A stretch of DNA of 64,000 nucleotides, taken from an uncultured Flavobacteriaceae bacterium (lineage in GTDB: Bacteria > Bacteroidota > Bacteroidia > Flavobacteriales > Flavobacteriaceae). Below are positions 53,490-60,690 of this stretch, piece after piece; positions within the stretch are counted from its first letter, which is position 1, and each line of letters starts with the position of its first letter. The notes under the pieces were generated by a model, which saw only the letters and a program-made list of their open reading frames with translations, searched no databases and was not told where the DNA came from. The stretch spans positions 1 to 64,000 of the forward strand of contig CALLVX010000076.1 of the NCBI GenBank assembly GCA_938010765.1, in the 5' to 3' direction. The position numbers and the translations under genes are program-made.

Positions 53490-54077
53490 ATGAAAAAAAT
53501 AAAGCTAGTAGCGCTCGCCCTAGTTGTAGGTGCATTTTACAACTGCAAGGAAGTAAAAAAAGAAGCGCAAGAAGTCACCGAGGAGGCCGAAGCGGCGGTT
53601 GAAGAAATGAAGGAAGAGGTATCTATAGAAAGTATCAAGTTTTCCATGGAACCCAAAAGTGAAAGCACCGTTAAAGGCGAAGTAAGTTTTACGGAAGAAA
53701 ATGGTGAAGTTAAAATGATAGCTGTTCTTACCGGACTTACAGAAGGGGAACATGCGATTCATATTCATGACAAGGCCGATTGTTCATCTGCAGACGGTAA
53801 ATCTACGGGAGGGCATTGGAACCCTACTTCCGAACCACATGGAAAATGGGGTGCAGCTGAAGGATATCACAAAGGAGATATAGGTAATTTTATAGCAGAT
53901 GCCGAGGGGAATGCTACAAAAGAATTTGTAACAGACCAATGGTGTATTGGTTGTGATGATGCCAATAAAAACATTGTAGGGAAGGCGGTAATCGTGCATC
54001 AGGGTGTCGATGATTTCGAATCGCAGCCGAGCGGAGATGCTGGTGCAAGAGTAAGCTGTACCGGTATTATAAATTAA
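53490..54077 (+). CDS. sodC: Cu-Zn superoxide dismutase, lipoprotein
   Basis: A 195-residue protein with a lipoprotein signal (ALALVVGAFYNC), then a Lys/Glu-rich helical linker of about 30 residues and a SodC domain. Copper and zinc ligands are visible in HAIHIHDKADC, GGHWNPTSEPHGKWG, GYHKGDIGNF and VIVHQGVDD. The electrostatic-guidance region GDAGARVSCTGII is present, with the disulfide pair in DKADC and VSC. It removes superoxide outside the cytoplasm. The upstream OsmC fusion and this gene may together serve oxidative-stress defence, though each has its own signals. Confidence 0.93.
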   Translation: MKKIKLVALALVVGAFYNCKEVKKEAQEVTEEAEAAVEEMKEEVSIESIKFSMEPKSESTVKGEVSFTEENGEVKMIAVLTGLTEGEHAIHIHDKADCSSADGKSTGGHWNPTSEPHGKWGAAEGYHKGDIGNFIADAEGNATKEFVTDQWCIGCDDANKNIVGKAVIVHQGVDDFESQPSGDAGARVSCTGIIN

Positions 54078-54095
54078 ATTAGAAACAAGACTAAT

Positions 54096-54128
54096 AAAAA
54101 AAGCTACCTAAATATAGGTAGCTTTTTT
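54096..54128. terminator. Strong hairpin terminator after sodC
   Basis: A near-perfect palindrome: AAAAAAGCTACCTA, a 4-nt loop, TAGGTAGCTTTTTTT. A and T runs on both sides allow termination in either direction, though its stem begins 19 nt after the sodC stop. Confidence 0.88.
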
Positions 54129-54164
54129 TAGTTTAAATGGTCAGTTATGACCTTTATACTAGCA

Positions 54165-54281
54165 CTATAAGTGCTCTTCTTTTGGCTTTAAAGCTTTGTT
54201 AAGCGATTTTTGAGCCAAAAACAAACGGTATCCTACAAACAACATTGCAGCAAACCAAACAGTAAATAAAATGTATTCCAT
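54165..54281 (-). CDS. Small single-pass membrane protein (38 residues)
   Basis: A short ORF starting MEYILFTVWFAAMLFVGYRL, then a basic tail ending KPKEEHL: one membrane helix of about 20 residues followed by a charged helix. The frame is open upstream to 54491, but that part is low-complexity and AT-rich, so the ATG at 54281 is the better start. Small proteins of this type are often missed. It is downstream of the sodC terminator on the opposite strand. Function unknown. Confidence 0.45.
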   Translation of the reverse strand: MEYILFTVWFAAMLFVGYRLFLAQKSLNKALKPKEEHL

Positions 54282-54529
54282 AACGTTGGGGGATTTTGGT
54301 GGAACATTTAGGTTAAATTCAATTTTGCTCTTACATACTTGGGGCATTAAAGAGCGGTAAATAAAATAATTGAACGATAAATATAGGAAATAGCTTTCTA
54401 TTTTCCTACAATAAATTAAAAATAACCTCTTACAAAATTTCTTTTTCATCAACATCCCTGTAAAATACCTTCTGTTTTTAGAATCTTCCAAAAATCAGAA
54501 CAACATGGCGTAAGTACACTTATTTCCCT

Positions 54530-54537
54530 TATTTTTG
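54530..54537 (+). promoter_or_regulatory. -7 promoter box TATTTTTG
   Basis: A perfect TAnnTTTG, 19 nt before the start of the LETM1-related gene. Confidence 0.6.
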
Positions 54538-54556
54538 CCCTCTTAAGTACTGTGCT

Positions 54557-55744
54557 ATGAACCCTTCGGCAACTGGATGGATCGATAAATTTGGATCTTT
54601 GGTAAAGGTGCGACCAGACGCATATACCGATTTCAGGGATTTGTATAGCGGCTTAAAGAAAGCGGGCTTTGTTTATGGTGTTAATACTCAAATTCCAAGA
54701 TTCATAGAGGCCGAACACATACTCTCTGAGGATGAAAAAGCAAAAATTAATCTACTAAACGCTTTATACTACACTTATTTATTAGAAAAAAAAGAGATCG
54801 ACTTCATCGTTTTTCTTGAGGAAGTGTTTCAGTTTTATAGTGCACTCAAAATCAATCAGATTTCTTTCCTATCGGGACTTTTTTCTGAAAAGAAAACTTC
54901 GAGTCAACTTGAAAAACTAATAGATTCCCGTGTGTATTTAGAGGATAACGTCATCAGCAAGACCTTTAATAGCATTATCACCAATTCCCTGTTGTTTGTA
55001 GATATATTACTTTTTAAACAATATCTTCAAGAAAAGGACACTATCTATCAACATGCACAATTGCTCGAATACTTGGCAATAAATATTACGTACCATGCAC
55101 TAAACTCGAAAGAAAAGAACAAAAGCGATGAAAAGTTGGCACAGCTTTTCGCCTCCTCCCTTACATTTATAGATAGCGACCTACAGCATTTTGATGGTTC
55201 TTATAGGAATAAATTGTTTCAAGTACGGAGTGTTTGGGAAAATAGGTATTTTTTAGATATTGCCTGTTTGGCGGTGTATGAAGATAGTTCGTTGGAATAC
55301 AAGGAATCAGAGTTCATTTTTGGCATTGGGAAAGACCTAGGTTTTGAAAGAAAACAGATTACCAGGTCTTTGGAAGAAATTAGTTATTTTTTCAAAAAAA
55401 ATGCACGCATTATTCCGTTTTTAAAAGACCAAAATTTGGCTGTACAGTTTTACGACAGCATGTCTAAAGTTGTTAATAAGTTGATTCTAAGAAATAGTAG
55501 ACGCTTGCAAAAAGAACTTTCAGAAAGCAAGGAATTAGTAGCCTTAATTTCCAAATCGACCGTCAAAGATTTAAGTCCAGAGGAAAGAAAAAAAATACGT
55601 CATCAGCTACTTGATATTTTTAAAACCATCCCATCGTTGGCAATTTTTATTTTGCCGGGCGGGGCCGTTTTGTTACCAATTTTCATTAAATTGATACCGA
55701 AATTACTACCTTCTTCATTTGATGATAATCGTGTGGAAAAATAA
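54557..55744 (+). CDS. LETM1-related biofilm-type protein
   Basis: A 395-residue largely helical protein. The last ~70 residues read SPEERKKIRHQLLDIFKTIP, then SLAIFILPGGAVLLPIFIKL, the LETM1-like signature of a polar helix followed by one hydrophobic segment with Pro-Gly-Gly. Flavobacterial relatives are annotated as LETM1-related biofilm-associated proteins. Mitochondrial LETM1 is a cation/proton exchanger, but these bacterial proteins share only the end. The N-terminal 320 residues are soluble helical repeats without known motifs. Monocistronic, with a clear -7 box. Confidence 0.78.
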   Translation: MNPSATGWIDKFGSLVKVRPDAYTDFRDLYSGLKKAGFVYGVNTQIPRFIEAEHILSEDEKAKINLLNALYYTYLLEKKEIDFIVFLEEVFQFYSALKINQISFLSGLFSEKKTSSQLEKLIDSRVYLEDNVISKTFNSIITNSLLFVDILLFKQYLQEKDTIYQHAQLLEYLAINITYHALNSKEKNKSDEKLAQLFASSLTFIDSDLQHFDGSYRNKLFQVRSVWENRYFLDIACLAVYEDSSLEYKESEFIFGIGKDLGFERKQITRSLEEISYFFKKNARIIPFLKDQNLAVQFYDSMSKVVNKLILRNSRRLQKELSESKELVALISKSTVKDLSPEERKKIRHQLLDIFKTIPSLAIFILPGGAVLLPIFIKLIPKLLPSSFDDNRVEK

Positions 55745-55824: not shown

Positions 55825-56580
55825 CTACTCTAACCAAAACTTGAAGTCACGAACACGCTCTCTACTCACAATGATTTCTTGTTCGGAAAAGCGATTAAGT
55901 TTAATTTGAAGACGCGAATTGGTATAGGCTACGATGTCTTTTATGTGATTGATGTTGATATAGAATTTACGACTTACCCTGAAAAATATTTTAGGCTCCA
56001 ATTCAGATTCAAGATGCTCTAACGTGGTTTCCAATAAATAATTTCTACCATCCGTTGTCGCCGCATAGGTCCCTTTGTTTTCACTATAAAAACACTCAAC
56101 CTCATCGGCATTGATAATTTTGAGATGCTGCCCTACCCTAGCAGTAAATCTCTTTTTATATTCTCGCTCAAGCGGATTCACTAAAAGCTTTTTGATGTCA
56201 TCAAAATCTAAAGCTATTTTTTGGGTTTCGGGCTTAAATTCTTTATACTTCTTTACAGCAACTTCAAGGTCTTCATCATCGATGGGTTTCAATAGATAAT
56301 CAATGCTATTCAACTTAAACGCCTGTAAAGCATATTCATCATAAGCGGTAGTAAAAATGATAGCGCTGTTTACATCTACGACTTCAAAAATTTCGAAAGA
56401 CAGGCCATCCGACAATTGTATATCCAAAAAAATCAGGTCGGGATGAGGGTTTCCCTGAAACCACTCGATTGCCTCCTCTACAGAGTGCAACATTACCGAT
56501 ACGGGAACATCGAGGTCAGACAAGAGTCTAGACAAGCGCCTCGCAGCCGGTTTTTCATCTTCTATAATAATTGTAGTCAT
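55825..56580 (-). CDS. LytTR-family response regulator
   Basis: A 251-residue regulator. The receiver domain (1-~120) has the acidic pocket at E7/D8/E9, the phosphoacceptor D53 in DLIFLDIQLSDG, and a lysine in DYLLKPIDDED. The LytTR DNA-binding domain (~145-251) shows FTARVGQHLKIINADEVECF, then YLLETTLEHLE and FRVSRKFYININHI. It lies last in the 2TM operon and should be the partner of the kinase at its head. The 51-nt gap to the preceding 2TM gene suggests co-transcription. Confidence 0.93.
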   Translation of the reverse strand: MTTIIIEDEKPAARRLSRLLSDLDVPVSVMLHSVEEAIEWFQGNPHPDLIFLDIQLSDGLSFEIFEVVDVNSAIIFTTAYDEYALQAFKLNSIDYLLKPIDDEDLEVAVKKYKEFKPETQKIALDFDDIKKLLVNPLEREYKKRFTARVGQHLKIINADEVECFYSENKGTYAATTDGRNYLLETTLEHLESELEPKIFFRVSRKFYININHIKDIVAYTNSRLQIKLNRFSEQEIIVSRERVRDFKFWLE

Positions 56581-56631
56581 CTGCTGGTGTTTGGTATTTG
56601 GTGAAAGAAAAGCGCAGTGGCCTTTAAGAAT

Positions 56632-56976
56632 CTATTGTTCCTCTTCCATATATTTTTTTATTTGTCGCTCTTCCCATTCACTTAGAAAGTTTGGTTTAAA
56701 GCTCTTAGCGCCAGACTCATAAACAAAAACATAAAATGCATGACAAGCAAGGCCAATACCCCAAAGAATGGGAGTGCCAATTACGTTCCATTCGAACCAA
56801 TTCAAAAAGCCGGGCTCATTATTGCCATTTTCAAGTAGTATTTCAAGCACGCGCCATTTTACGATAAGTAGTAGAATATTGACCACAATATATGCGGTCA
56901 AATGTTTATAAAAACCTTTTATACTGTCGACTCGTTTCTTTGCTTTGATAAACAAATCGGATTGTTGATTTTTCAT
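56632..56976 (-). CDS. 2TM-domain protein (fourth free copy)
   Basis: A 114-residue protein made of one 2TM domain (PF13239 type). It starts FIKAKKRVDSIKGFYKHLTA, has two membrane helices with YIVVNILLLIVKWRV in the first and TPILWGIGLACHAFYVFV in the second, and ends with WEERQIKKYMEEE. The same frame of conserved residues (basic R-V helix, F-Y, W-G-I-G-L, W-E-x-R) occurs in three neighbours and in the kinase. Its closest relative here is the next gene upstream (both have TPI-WGIGL). Confidence 0.88.
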   Translation of the reverse strand: MKNQQSDLFIKAKKRVDSIKGFYKHLTAYIVVNILLLIVKWRVLEILLENGNNEPGFLNWFEWNVIGTPILWGIGLACHAFYVFVYESGAKSFKPNFLSEWEERQIKKYMEEEQ

Positions 56977-56998
56977 TGGTATTCAGATTACGTTTTTT

Positions 56999-57334
56999 TT
57001 AATTTTCGCTGTCTTCCCGTATAAATTTCTGCAGTTGGCGCTCTTCCCATTTCTGTCCAAAAAATGAACCACCACGAAGTATTTTGATGCCATGTATACA
57101 GAGTCCAATCCCCCAAATAATGGGAGTGCCGTACAGATTCCAGTCAATCCAATCAAGGAAGGCCGGATCGCCCATTACTCTTTTACTGAGTAAAACGAAT
57201 GTAAAGTGGTCCCTTAAAAGTAGTAAAAGTGCATTGACGACAAAATAGGTCGCTACATGATTATAGAAATACTTAAGCTCGGCCACTCGAACCTTGGCCC
57301 TTTGGTACTTTGATTTTTCTTCGGTTGTCTTCAT
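56999..57334 (-). CDS. 2TM-domain protein (third free copy)
   Basis: A 111-residue 2TM-domain protein: YQRAKVRVAELKYFYNHVAT, FVVNALLLLLRDHF, GTPIIWGIGLCIHGIKIL and KWEERQLQKFIRED. Its start codon overlaps the stop of the preceding 2TM gene (TAATG), which couples translation. It pairs with the following copy by sequence, suggesting recent duplication. Confidence 0.88.
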   Translation of the reverse strand: MKTTEEKSKYQRAKVRVAELKYFYNHVATYFVVNALLLLLRDHFTFVLLSKRVMGDPAFLDWIDWNLYGTPIIWGIGLCIHGIKILRGGSFFGQKWEERQLQKFIREDSEN

Positions 57335-57672
57335 TAGAATCGCTTGTTAAATTTATCGGCCTCTCGTTCGTCCTCCTCTACATATTTTTGAATTTGGCGC
57401 TGCTCCCAATCTTTACTGAACAAACTATACCCGAAAACTTTCGCTGCGTGAAACCCTAAACCGATGCCCCATGCGCCCCATACAAAAAAAGTACCCAGAT
57501 CAAAGAAGGCTTCATTAAAGCTTTCACCATTTTCTAAGTTTCTTATTATTTTACTGGTGGTTATAAACGTATTAACGACCACATACACCGTTAAATGAAC
57601 ATAAAACCCTTTTAACTCCTCGACCCGTTTTCGGGCCCTAGCTATTTTTTTACCATCTGAAAATTCTTGCAT
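57334..57672 (-). CDS. 2TM-domain protein (second free copy)
   Basis: A 112-residue 2TM-domain protein: KIARARKRVEELKGFYVHLT, VYVVVNTFITTSKII, then VWGAWGIGLGFHAAKVFGYS and DWEQRQIQKYVEED. It differs from the other copies in the loop between helices, which is longer and Asn/Glu-rich (NLENGESFNEAFFDLG). I start at the ATG at 57672; the frame is open to an in-frame start at 57702, which would overlap the previous gene by 10 nt. Confidence 0.86.
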   Translation of the reverse strand: MQEFSDGKKIARARKRVEELKGFYVHLTVYVVVNTFITTSKIIRNLENGESFNEAFFDLGTFFVWGAWGIGLGFHAAKVFGYSLFSKDWEQRQIQKYVEEDEREADKFNKRF

Positions 57673-57692
57673 AACCTTTGTATTTGGTATTA

Positions 57693-57995
57693 CTATTCCC
57701 ATTTGTTACTAACTTTATCATCCTTCATGAACTCTTTAATTTTTCGGTCTTCCCAACTTTTACCAAAAAAAGGGTTCATATCAAAAGCTTTGATGCCTTG
57801 AAAGACTAGACCAATGCCCCAGCCTAAAGCGGGCCAAAGAAACCAGGCATAACGCCACTCATCTGCATAATAGTTCAACCCGGCCAAAAAAGATATGACC
57901 AGTATATAAGAAACTAAGCTTGTATAAAATTTCTTCACTTCGGCCACTCGCTCTTTGGCCCTAAGATATTTGTTATCGCCGTCTAGAAAATTCAT
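57693..57995 (-). CDS. 2TM-domain protein (first free copy)
   Basis: A 100-residue 2TM-domain protein: DNKYLRAKERVAEVKKFYTS, SYILVISFLAGLNYY, then LWPALGWGIGLVFQGIKAFD and SWEDRKIKEFMKDD. This is the copy most like the C-terminal domain of the kinase encoded next upstream (both GWGIGL, both with a short interhelical loop and F/W-GK-x-WE). It lies 125 nt after the kinase gene. Confidence 0.87.
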   Translation of the reverse strand: MNFLDGDNKYLRAKERVAEVKKFYTSLVSYILVISFLAGLNYYADEWRYAWFLWPALGWGIGLVFQGIKAFDMNPFFGKSWEDRKIKEFMKDDKVSNKWE

Positions 57996-58120
57996 TTAGT
58001 TTATTTTTATTATTGTACCCTACAAATCTCTTAAAGAAACCTTTTATTTAAAAAATCGTTTTCCCGAACTGTAATTTTTAGAGGACGAATCGTAGAATCA
58101 ACAGCAAACTATAAGTACAT

Positions 58121-59458
58121 TCAGAAGTTCTCATCCTCCATATACCTCCGTATCTTGCGTTCTTCCCAACGTTTTCCCCATAATGGGTGGCGCCCGAAGG
58201 CTTCCATGCCATGAGCGGTCAACCCAATACCCCATCCTATCATAGGAAAAAGTACCCATGGAAAACTTGTTCCTTGATAATTGAGATAGGCCAAAAAGGG
58301 TATGACAATGCAATAACTGATCAAATTTCCATAAAAACCCTTGATTTTTTCTACTCGCTCCTTGGCCTTTTCATACCGTTTGTCATCTATAAACGACTTT
58401 TGCGTCTCAAGGACCGAAACTTGTTTTTTAAGTATAGGTAGGTGCACGCTAAACCCGGTTGCCGATTTATGAATACTTACTTTTTTATTCGAGAGAATAT
58501 CGTACCGCTGTCGAATATTTTGTAGGCCCACCCCACTGCTTTTTTTAACAACTTGCTTCTCTTGTAGATTATTACGAACCACCAACGCCCCGTCTTCTTC
58601 AATAACAGAGATATGAAGCGGTTTCGATTTCGTTACAATGTTATGTTTCACTGCATTCTCTAGTAATAACTGAAGTGATAGTGGAACGATTTTAGCCTCG
58701 GGGTCGCTACTTTTTTCAGGTATATCTAGCACAATACTTTCTTCAAAACGCATTTTCAATAAACGCACATAGGTTCTGGCAAATTCTAGCTCCTCATCTA
58801 CCGAGACCAAGTCTTTATTCTTTTGTTCCAAAACATATCGGTAGATCTTACTAAGTGAAGTGGTAAATTTCTGTGCCTGATAAGGGTCTTCCTCGATCAA
58901 GCTGGTCAATACATTTAAACTATTGAATAAGAAATGAGGGTCGAGTTGGTTCTTGAGGGCATCGAATTTGGCAGAAGCGGTGCCAGCAATGATCTTTTGT
59001 TCCTTGACCTTGGCTTCTTGGCGATGTTTATAATACCAAACAGCATAAAAAATTAAAGACACTACTAAGGCGATTACCATAGATATCCAATAGTCTTCGA
59101 TACGCTCTCCCATTAAAAAATCGCCAACACCCCTCTTATAAACACCGACCAAGAGTATGAACCTGGCCACAAACACCCCTATCAATGATACGACTACGTT
59201 GCCGGCAATACCAATTGAAAACCGTTTTAAAGTAAAAAGATCTTGTCTGTAATTGTTCAATAAATACTGAAACCACAGAGCATTGACCATATAAAGGATT
59301 ACCGAAAAAATCATGTTCTCCCAAAAATCTTCCAATAGCTGCGCCCAATCGACACCGTCATCAAACTTCCCGTAGAAGAAATAGATAAGAATGAAAACAC
59401 CATATACAAGGACACCAATCAATACGGCATTAAACAAGTCTTTTCTTAATCGCTGCAT
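58121..59458 (-). CDS. LytS-type histidine kinase with C-terminal 2TM domain
   Basis: A 445-residue kinase. Four hydrophobic segments lie in the first ~150 residues. Then comes a His_kinase domain with the phosphorylated H175 in LDPHFLFNSLNVLTSLI, and an ATPase part (LLLENAVKHNIV, GVGLQNIRQRYDILSN). The last ~85 residues, after FIDDKRYEKAKERVEKIKGF, are a complete 2TM domain with FPMIGWGIGLTAHGMEAF and RWEERKIRRYMEDE. The kinase thus carries the same module as the four small proteins that follow it. It starts 5 nt after a TPR-protein gene. Likely partner: the LytTR regulator at the operon end. Confidence 0.93.
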   Translation of the reverse strand: MQRLRKDLFNAVLIGVLVYGVFILIYFFYGKFDDGVDWAQLLEDFWENMIFSVILYMVNALWFQYLLNNYRQDLFTLKRFSIGIAGNVVVSLIGVFVARFILLVGVYKRGVGDFLMGERIEDYWISMVIALVVSLIFYAVWYYKHRQEAKVKEQKIIAGTASAKFDALKNQLDPHFLFNSLNVLTSLIEEDPYQAQKFTTSLSKIYRYVLEQKNKDLVSVDEELEFARTYVRLLKMRFEESIVLDIPEKSSDPEAKIVPLSLQLLLENAVKHNIVTKSKPLHISVIEEDGALVVRNNLQEKQVVKKSSGVGLQNIRQRYDILSNKKVSIHKSATGFSVHLPILKKQVSVLETQKSFIDDKRYEKAKERVEKIKGFYGNLISYCIVIPFLAYLNYQGTSFPWVLFPMIGWGIGLTAHGMEAFGRHPLWGKRWEERKIRRYMEDENF

Positions 59459-59463
59459 TCTTT

Positions 59464-60087
59464 TTATTTAGTACAATTCGCCAGTGTCGATTCCGCTCTG
59501 TCTTTACCCCAATTAGGGTGAAAATCGCTCTCAGGTTTAAAGTTAGCAAAAAGTTCTATGGAACGCTCTACATCTTTACAGTAAGGAGCCGTATCTTGCC
59601 CGAAATAACTCGCAGACCCCATATCCCATTCCGCTTTCGAAAATACGACCCTTGGGTTCTCCGGAGCCAATTGCAAAGCTTGGCTATACAAAGCCGCGAC
59701 TTTTCCTGAAAGCGACATACCATAGGTAGCACCATCGAAGGCGATCCAGGCCGTATGAATCATAGCCTGTTGCACTAGAATTTCAGGGTTATCAGGTGAA
59801 ATAGTCTTCGCAATGTCTATAAACTCTTGCGCCTTTTCCAATTGCTGACTTAGTATGGTTTTGTCTTTTTCATTAAAAGATAAGATGGTATTTATCTGGG
59901 CCACATAATAGTGGGGCAACCAATTGTCTAACTCGACCGAGCCAATTCGTTCGAACATATTCGACGCTTCTACCGCTTTGCCTTCTCCCCATAACTGAAA
60001 TGCCTTTTGCATCCCCTTGGCGTATTGACCCTGCCCGAAAGTAAGGGTCGACATTAAAAAAACTGTAATTGCAACTAGATTCTTCAT
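59464..60087 (-). CDS. Exported TPR-like protein
   Basis: A 207-residue protein with a signal peptide (AITVFLMSTLTFGQ). The mature part reads as helical repeats of TPR type (AFQLWGEGKAVEASNMFERI, SPDNPEILVQQAMIHTAWIA, LYSQALQLAPENPRVVFSKA). A cysteine pair near the end (YCKDVER, LANC) could form a disulfide. It lies 5 nt before the kinase gene and 10 nt after the DUF2141 gene, so it belongs to the same operon. It may be the periplasmic part of the sensory system. Confidence 0.8.
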   Translation of the reverse strand: MKNLVAITVFLMSTLTFGQGQYAKGMQKAFQLWGEGKAVEASNMFERIGSVELDNWLPHYYVAQINTILSFNEKDKTILSQQLEKAQEFIDIAKTISPDNPEILVQQAMIHTAWIAFDGATYGMSLSGKVAALYSQALQLAPENPRVVFSKAEWDMGSASYFGQDTAPYCKDVERSIELFANFKPESDFHPNWGKDRAESTLANCTK

Positions 60088-60097
60088 GGTATTCGTT

Positions 60098-60517
60098 TTA
60101 TAGTTTAATGATTTGTTTTACTGTTTTCCCTTTTACTTGAAATTTCGCATCCTCCCATTTTGGAGGACCAAAACGGGCCGGCGCATTGTTTGAAGCACCT
60201 GTATCTTCCGTAGGTATCCCAAAAAGGGCATCTAATTTTCCATCATTGTCTTTATCATGGCACAACGAAATAGCATAGGTACCGTCGGGAACATTCTCAA
60301 AAACGACTTTTGACTCCCCATTTTTTATTTCCCCATGCGTACCCATCTTAATTTTCTTTAACCATTGACTCTTGGCGACATATAGGCCTACAACCAACAA
60401 TCCTTTATACGAACTTATATTTAGCACCTCCACTTCAGTCGTGGCGGTATCTTTTTCTTGTGTAGAAGCGAATTGGTTTATTAGAAAAAGAAGGCAGAGT
60501 AAAAAAGCTTTTTGCAT
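60098..60517 (-). CDS. DUF2141 exported protein
   Basis: A 139-residue protein with a signal peptide (LLCLLFLINQFAST). The mature part is a beta-sandwich with the DUF2141 wording: NISSYKGLLVVGLYVAKSQW, FENVPDGTYAISLCHDKDND, then GKLDALFGIPTEDTGASNNA and FGPPKWEDAKFQV. Function unknown. It is the first gene of the 2TM/two-component operon. On the minus strand a CAAATTTG box (seven of eight to TAnnTTTG) lies about 25-30 nt upstream of its start. Confidence 0.85.
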   Translation of the reverse strand: MQKAFLLCLLFLINQFASTQEKDTATTEVEVLNISSYKGLLVVGLYVAKSQWLKKIKMGTHGEIKNGESKVVFENVPDGTYAISLCHDKDNDGKLDALFGIPTEDTGASNNAPARFGPPKWEDAKFQVKGKTVKQIIKL

Positions 60518-60690
60518 TTTTAGAGAATATTATTAGACAGCACAAATTTGATACAATCGAACCGGGAATTGAAAAAAGTACTACCGAACTGTTGGTTTTT
60601 AGGATTGAATCGTAACCAATGCTTAACAGCTGTTCAAAAGCGTACCGATATCGGTTGAAATACCAACTAAAATTCCAGTAATTTCACCCC

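Follow-up and report, generated by a model that had tools for sequence, protein, structure and literature searches.

The operon analysed here is, on balance, probably the Flavobacteriaceae form of a conserved LytS/LytTR two-component system, in which the 2TM domain would be a membrane subunit of the kinase that has been duplicated and feeds back on the kinase. It lies in a stretch of 64,000 nucleotides, referred to as the window. The partnership of 2TM proteins and kinase rests on several genomic lines; the sign and the nature of the control are putative. A tandem LytTR-type operator is present ahead of the operon and again inside the gap between the kinase and the first free 2TM gene, and it was overlooked in the preliminary description of this DNA. 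Our literature search, mainly of open-access papers, found no published account of the function of the 2TM domain or of this operon.

Operon layout and gene products

Eight genes in one direction had been described, and their coordinates and their position on the minus strand were confirmed from the sequence and with Pfam. The genes and the predicted control sites are as follows.

60584-60613, minus strand: operon operator, a tandem LytTR-type repeat with a 21-nt period and one mismatch, 96 nt before the DUF2141 start
60543-60550, minus strand: CAAATTTG, candidate promoter box, 63 nt after the start of the operon operator; fits the operator-anchored profile
60098-60517, minus strand: DUF2141 protein (PF09912, E 4.5e-28) with a signal-like N-terminus; probable output
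59464-60087, minus strand: TPR-like protein with a signal-like N-terminus, a frequent operon partner; resembles PG_2227 (6bqs/6crl, E 8.7e-10)
58121-59458, minus strand: LytS-type kinase; His_kinase PF06580 at residues 163-241, DPHFLFNSLN with His175, C-terminal 2TM at residues 363-441
58136-58372, minus strand: kinase-fused 2TM domain, class K (PF13239, E 2.5e-29 to 3.4e-30; trees)
58064-58093, minus strand: internal operator, an exact match, 98 nt before the start of the first free 2TM
58023-58030, minus strand: GAGATTTG, candidate promoter box, 63 nt after the start of the internal operator; fits the operator-anchored profile
57693-57995, minus strand: free 2TM 1, class A, kinase-like (PF13239, E 1.1e-28)
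57334-57702, minus strand: free 2TM 2, class B, with H36 and H85 (PF13239; tree; model)
56999-57334, minus strand: free 2TM 3, class C (PF13239; trees)
56632-56976, minus strand: free 2TM 4, class C (PF13239; trees)
55825-56580, minus strand: response regulator (LytTR PF04397, E 3.3e-20; Response_reg PF00072, E 8.6e-13)

The four small proteins match PF13239 in Pfam with E values from 5.8e-19 to 1.1e-28, and all five 2TM units of the operon exceed the curated cut-off of this family. The R-V...F-Y, W-G-I-G-L and W-E-x-R motifs, noticed earlier as shared, could be read directly in all five. The intergenic gaps in gene order are 10, 5, 125, -10, -1, 22 and 51 nt. The genes had been said to follow each other with short gaps, which holds for most junctions but not for the 125 nt between the kinase and the first free 2TM, where the internal operator is found.

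The TPR-like protein had no Pfam match at E 0.01 and resembles a solved P. gingivalis protein, PG_2227 (6bqs, E 8.7e-10). A PDB sequence search with the DUF2141 protein gave no match up to E 1, and with the first free 2TM the best values were only E 0.67 and 0.79. Past the regulator, genes for a Cu/Zn superoxide dismutase and a LETM1-like protein follow (window 53490-55744), and by eye their look-alikes occupy the same place in another genus (L300:4946-7452).

Kinase and regulator

The kinase carries PF06580, the phosphoacceptor histidine within DPHFLFNSLN and the N-box asparagine, and the regulator combines a receiver with a LytTR DNA-binding domain. H175 and N268 are invariant among 62 kinases. 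The tail is also constrained, and A365, K373, F375, W401, P405, W409, G410, G428 and W431 are invariant in the 62 aligned sequences. The kinase core, the regulator domains and the tandem direct-repeat operator with a 12-nt spacer are the same as in LytS/LytTR systems. Unlike in those systems, the kinase ends in a membrane hairpin, free copies of this hairpin lie beside it at every locus examined (152/152), and the operator also stands before DUF2141, DUF2807 and TonB-receptor genes.

A kinase model built with 62 sequences (mean pLDDT 82.3, pTM 0.46) shows four long helices at the N-terminus and C-terminal helices at 352-396, 403-420 and 431-441, and its catalytic core matches GanS (6swk, E 1e-8). 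The class B 2TM was modelled with helices at 9-57, 69-89 and 97-121 (mean pLDDT 86.5, pTM 0.60); no PDB fold matched this model at E <= 0.001. Judging from the kinase fusion, both ends of the hairpin would be cytoplasmic. The kinase of locus L096 is found as two frames (113 and 312 aa), which is either a broken gene or a sequencing error.

Free 2TM copies beside the kinase

A 2TM match was found in 106 of 120 Flavobacteriaceae genomes and in 92 of the 99 of good quality. The 14 genomes without a match are small (1.3-2.3 Mb). The copy-number survey proposed in the preliminary description was run on 77 kinase loci among the matches listed in the family survey, on the best 80 of 577 relatives (from Maribacter, Arenibacter, Allomuricauda, Flagellimonas, Robiginitalea, Lacinutrix, Flavobacterium and others) and on the window. 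Removing loci with identical kinase ends left 152 distinct loci, and each of them has between one and seven free 2TMs beside the kinase: one in 26 loci, two in 48, three in 42, four in 20, five in 9, six in 6 and seven in a single locus. Multiplied free 2TMs beside the kinase are no oddity of the window.

The neighbouring genes recur as well. Counted over all 152 loci, those at contig ends included, 106 have a TPR-like gene ahead of the kinase at no more than 300 nt and 43 a DUF2141 gene at no more than 1500 nt; in 147 the regulator follows within 5 kb. Fused forms were also observed: L087 (514 aa) is a kinase with two tandem 2TM domains and L098 (214 aa) is a free protein consisting of a double 2TM. 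In genome G207, which has six 2TM matches, a first kinase match is followed some 3 kb on by another, more distant one in a frame of 460 aa (contig 2:206066-211141).

Split form and 2TM domains outside the Flavobacteriaceae

Across a draw of the phylum, 2TM was found in 45 of 198 genomes. A kinase-length 2TM frame was present in 19 of these 45, all of them members of the Flavobacteriaceae or of a single further family in this order. In another family of the class, 9 of 61 genomes had a 2TM over the cut-off. We fetched eight other-family loci from four genera (L289, L340-L346; L346 stops at a contig edge), and five of them have a split form, in which the 2TM gene is followed by that of a tail-less kinase (343-360 aa) and then by the regulator gene; the single 2TM gene abuts or overlaps the kinase gene. 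At L343 and L344 the 2TM match, covered by an over-long frame, follows the TPR-like gene and precedes the kinase, and no regulator was recognised after the kinase of L344. Five of the eight also have a TPR-like gene ahead of these genes. The operator is exact in four loci, has one mismatch in two and is not found in the fetched piece of the remaining two. Since the 2TM stands here as a separate gene next to a tail-less kinase, the kinase tail looks like a fused subunit. No 2TM was found in the ~4 kb pieces around 18 kinase loci of other families (L313-L330).

That the free 2TMs work with the kinase had been proposed earlier, and the gene context argues for it: they are beside the kinase in 152/152 loci, they have the split form as a counterpart in the other family, and fusions such as L087 and L098 exist. 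The free copies are probably partners of the kinase, and those that resemble its tail probably act in feedback.

It speaks against the subunit reading that the 2TM domain also occurs without a 2TM-kinase, adjoining or fused to dihydrofolate-reductase-like genes and beside DUF2306. The window's own genome has one further 2TM elsewhere (G000 contig 88:12930-13172; L113:4874-5263), directly followed by a gene that, from its sequence, we take to be dihydrofolate reductase. This is a separate kind of 2TM, which in three genomes (L281, L282, L283) is fused with the dihydrofolate-reductase-like gene into proteins of 288-310 aa, and some pairs of 2TM and dihydrofolate-reductase-like genes have nearby what is, from its sequence, presumably a thymidylate-synthase-like gene. 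By eye, a 2TM gene of another family overlaps a DUF2306-like membrane gene (L287:3221-3998). More distant members of the phylum have a short N-terminal domain followed by 2TM in proteins of 184-188 aa (L292:3253-3819, L293:2999-3553). At L285, L286, L341 and L343, from other families, a TonB-type receptor gene is directly before the TPR-like gene.

Two branches of 2TM domains

On a rooted tree the 2TM domains form two sister branches, one with the kinase tails and the free copies of classes A and K' (303 leaves, support 0.935) and one with the free copies of classes B and C (267 leaves, support 0.939); these supports are modest, for a domain of ~80 residues, and the root was imposed on other-family single 2TMs, six of the eight, which do not group together at the root. 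Class B is present in 123 of the 152 loci, class A in 88 and class C in 66. When a locus has a sole free copy, it belongs to class B in 25 of 26 cases.

The branches keep different residues. Kinase tails have Asn or Ser at alignment column 56 (His 0.12), together with Asn71 (0.97), Trp100 (1.00), Pro110 (0.99) and His121 (0.84). Class B has His56 (1.00), Asn64 (0.97) and His121 (0.98) and is mostly without Asn71, Trp100 and Pro110; class C has His56 at 0.90 and His121 at 0.82. The six outside 2TMs combine His56, Trp100, Pro110, Gly113 and His121. It looks as if one ancestral residue set had been divided between the fused and the free form. Competition of the small proteins for the 2TM of the kinase, as proposed earlier, is most plausible for classes A and K', here the copy at 57693-57995; copies 2-4 belong to a distinct branch with its own conserved residues.

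Operators and promoter boxes

The operator pattern is ACRRTTCRK-N12-ACARTTSRG. LytTR sites have the consensus [TA][AC][CA]GTTN[AG][TG] and are arranged as tandem 9-nt direct repeats ~12 nt apart. Our sites show such tandem 9-nt repeats, with a second half-site that fits this consensus and a first one that fits only in part. The 64-kb window contains just the two sites with up to two mismatches, vs 0.21 expected. Two of the 152 loci had too little upstream DNA; among the other 150, 125 have an operator with up to two mismatches in the 300 nt before the operon, at a median of 97 nt to the start. The same holds for 57 of 70 kinase/2TM gaps of 50-700 nt, also with a median of 97 nt. Markov-sampled controls gave 0.13% (upstream) and 0% (gaps). 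As the site is absent from 25 of the 150 upstream regions and 13 of the 70 longer gaps, and the kinase-2TM gap is below 50 nt in 81 of the 152 loci, neither operator is universal.

A profile anchored on the operator gave a box near cAtaTTTG at 63-70 nt, which is a candidate promoter element. The -7 box of Bacteroidota is TAnnTTTG, and exact copies of it were few. A scan for sigma-70 promoters and terminators stayed near the shuffled background and was discarded.

Sorted by the class of the first free 2TM, A-first loci have the internal operator in 31 cases, a longer gap without it in 8 and a short gap in 10; for K'-first loci the numbers are 26, 6 and 14. None of the 48 B-first loci has an internal operator, and all 48 gaps are below 50 nt. 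The nine loci that are C-first or unclassed all have short gaps. The internal operator suggests that the regulator of this same sensor turns on some of the free 2TMs, and the half of the operon with the 2TM and regulator genes probably has its own regulator-controlled promoter. The preliminary description regarded independent transcription of the small genes as evidence against its proposal. Half of this is predicted here, in that an internal promoter is likely, but it would be under the system's own regulator.

The internal operator also bears on a possible but doubtful explanation, namely that the free 2TMs are obligatory positive subunits for assembly or sensing, that the kinase is dead without them, and that the internal promoter does no more than raise capacity, competition and damping playing no part. 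Such a role would agree with a free 2TM being missing in none of the 152 loci, with class B as the sole copy in 25 of the 26 single-copy loci and with its near-invariant histidine pair, but it leaves unexplained why kinase-like copies stand behind a separate operator.

Genes behind the operator in other genomes

We counted 68 exact operators in 44 of the 62 genomes with the system, and none of the reversed pattern in the 62; the other 18 genomes, the same-genus G018 among them, have no exact site. No exact operator was found in 27 Flavobacteriaceae genomes (18 of good quality) without a kinase match at 1e-60, an absence search that had no positive of its own, the same query finding family members at 1e-74 or better elsewhere. 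This co-occurrence (44/62 with the kinase vs 0/27 without) is what points to the regulator acting at the predicted operator. Some of these loci had served to derive the pattern; its independent tests are the exact count across whole genomes, the control with 27 genomes and the loci of the other family.

Thirty of the 68 exact sites are the operon's own. The genes behind the other 38, assigned by Pfam on representatives and otherwise by phmmer or HMM, are 12 DUF2141, 13 DUF2807, 6 TonB-type receptors with CarbopepD_reg, 2 DUF2306, 1 RDD and 4 unassigned or other genes; 33 of the 38 thus precede DUF2141, DUF2807, TonB-receptor or DUF2306 genes. The sites at L137, L158, L162 and L171 stand before two TonB receptors, one DUF2141 and one unassigned gene. 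Seven sites (four receptors, two DUF2141 and the RDD) are within 8 kb of the kinase tail, and 31 are further off or on other contigs. Four of the six receptors behind the operator in Flavobacteriaceae lie within 6 kb of the kinase. Operator-bearing DUF2306 genes of this family are at L141 and L145, and one is at the operon head in L153.

The genome of the window has just one further exact site, on contig 116, 121 nt before a second DUF2141 gene. Allowing two mismatches, this genome gives 19 operator matches vs 7 for the reversed pattern; the other-than-exact matches among the 17 outside the window were set aside, being inside genes or in an unconvincing position. The exported proteins had been proposed as input or output of the system. 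For DUF2141 the output side is favoured, because the same operator precedes DUF2141 genes elsewhere, including the second one in this genome, and the TPR-like protein may be the input. The regulator probably controls its own operon, separately the 2TM-regulator half, and a small set of envelope genes.

These sites also speak to an unlikely explanation, in which the free 2TMs are effectors, membrane-protecting outputs that share the domain with the kinase by chance and do not regulate it. It would account for the internal operator before 2TM genes, for the envelope-type genes behind other sites and for a copy number that varies from 1 to 7. However, a 2TM is the first gene behind 0 of the 38 other sites, so the 2TM stays with the kinase and is not a scattered output. 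The single 2TM of the other family abuts or overlaps the gene of a kinase that has no 2TM of its own, and a kinase+2TM+2TM fusion exists. That the extra copies are passengers of neutral tandem duplication is highly improbable, for although copy number varies and some same-locus copies cluster in the tree, class B keeps near-invariant residues at columns 56 (His, 1.00) and 64 (Asn, 0.97), the classes are common to 66-123 of the 152 loci and the operators are conserved.

Comparison with envelope stress systems

The envelope-type genes behind the operator suggest that the system could serve an envelope-stress response. In LiaFSR and phage-shock systems, too, the genes of a two-component system are accompanied by one for an accessory protein of the membrane (PMC11237479). 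The same paper unifies DUF2807 with the domain of LiaF as Toastrack, and DUF2807 (Toastrack) genes carry the operator here, which forms a link to LiaFSR. Unlike in LiaFSR and phage-shock systems, a Pfam scan of the eight operon proteins found neither LiaF/Toastrack nor PspA or PspC. Bacteroidales have putative adhesins with DUF2807, PGN_1547 among them (PMC10949514). PGN_1547 shares its Pfam family with the genes at 13 of the 38 non-operon sites; it comes from different organisms, and the accessible part of PMC10949514 has no tie to the 2TM-kinase.

Proposed mechanism

For the feedback system that we favour, the following course may be envisaged. Judging from the other family, the ancestor would have had a tail-less kinase with a single 2TM encoded by a gene of its own next to it. 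The 2TM would then have been duplicated, one copy becoming the C-terminal tail of the kinase and the other staying free as classes B and C, and the tail would later have given rise to the further free copies A and K'. The free hairpins would pack with the kinase's own tail into one membrane complex, where B and C with their histidine pair might define or detect the resting state. Once phosphorylated, the regulator would bind the tandem operators and switch on the operon together with DUF2141, DUF2807, TonB-receptor and DUF2306 genes. From the internal site more class A 2TM and regulator would be made, and the kinase-like hairpins would feed back on the kinase, more likely by damping it.

A more specific version is put forward tentatively. 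The 2TM may be a dedicated family of kinase subunits, an ancestral hairpin split by duplication into kinase-borne and free halves, which form a mixed bundle whose composition is changed by the internal promoter and in which the B/C histidine pair is a sensing site for a ligand (metal, haem or proton). If this were true, the mix of 2TM copies would set the threshold of the sensor.

For the Flavobacteriaceae, a domain without an assigned function that is present in 92 of the 99 good-quality genomes would become a testable part of a sensor. For the regulator, a binding site and a small number of target genes are predicted, and the DUF2141, DUF2807 and DUF2306 families would be tied to one circuit. 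With the split and fused forms, and with a separate operator before the kinase-like copies, the role of the extra copies becomes directly answerable.
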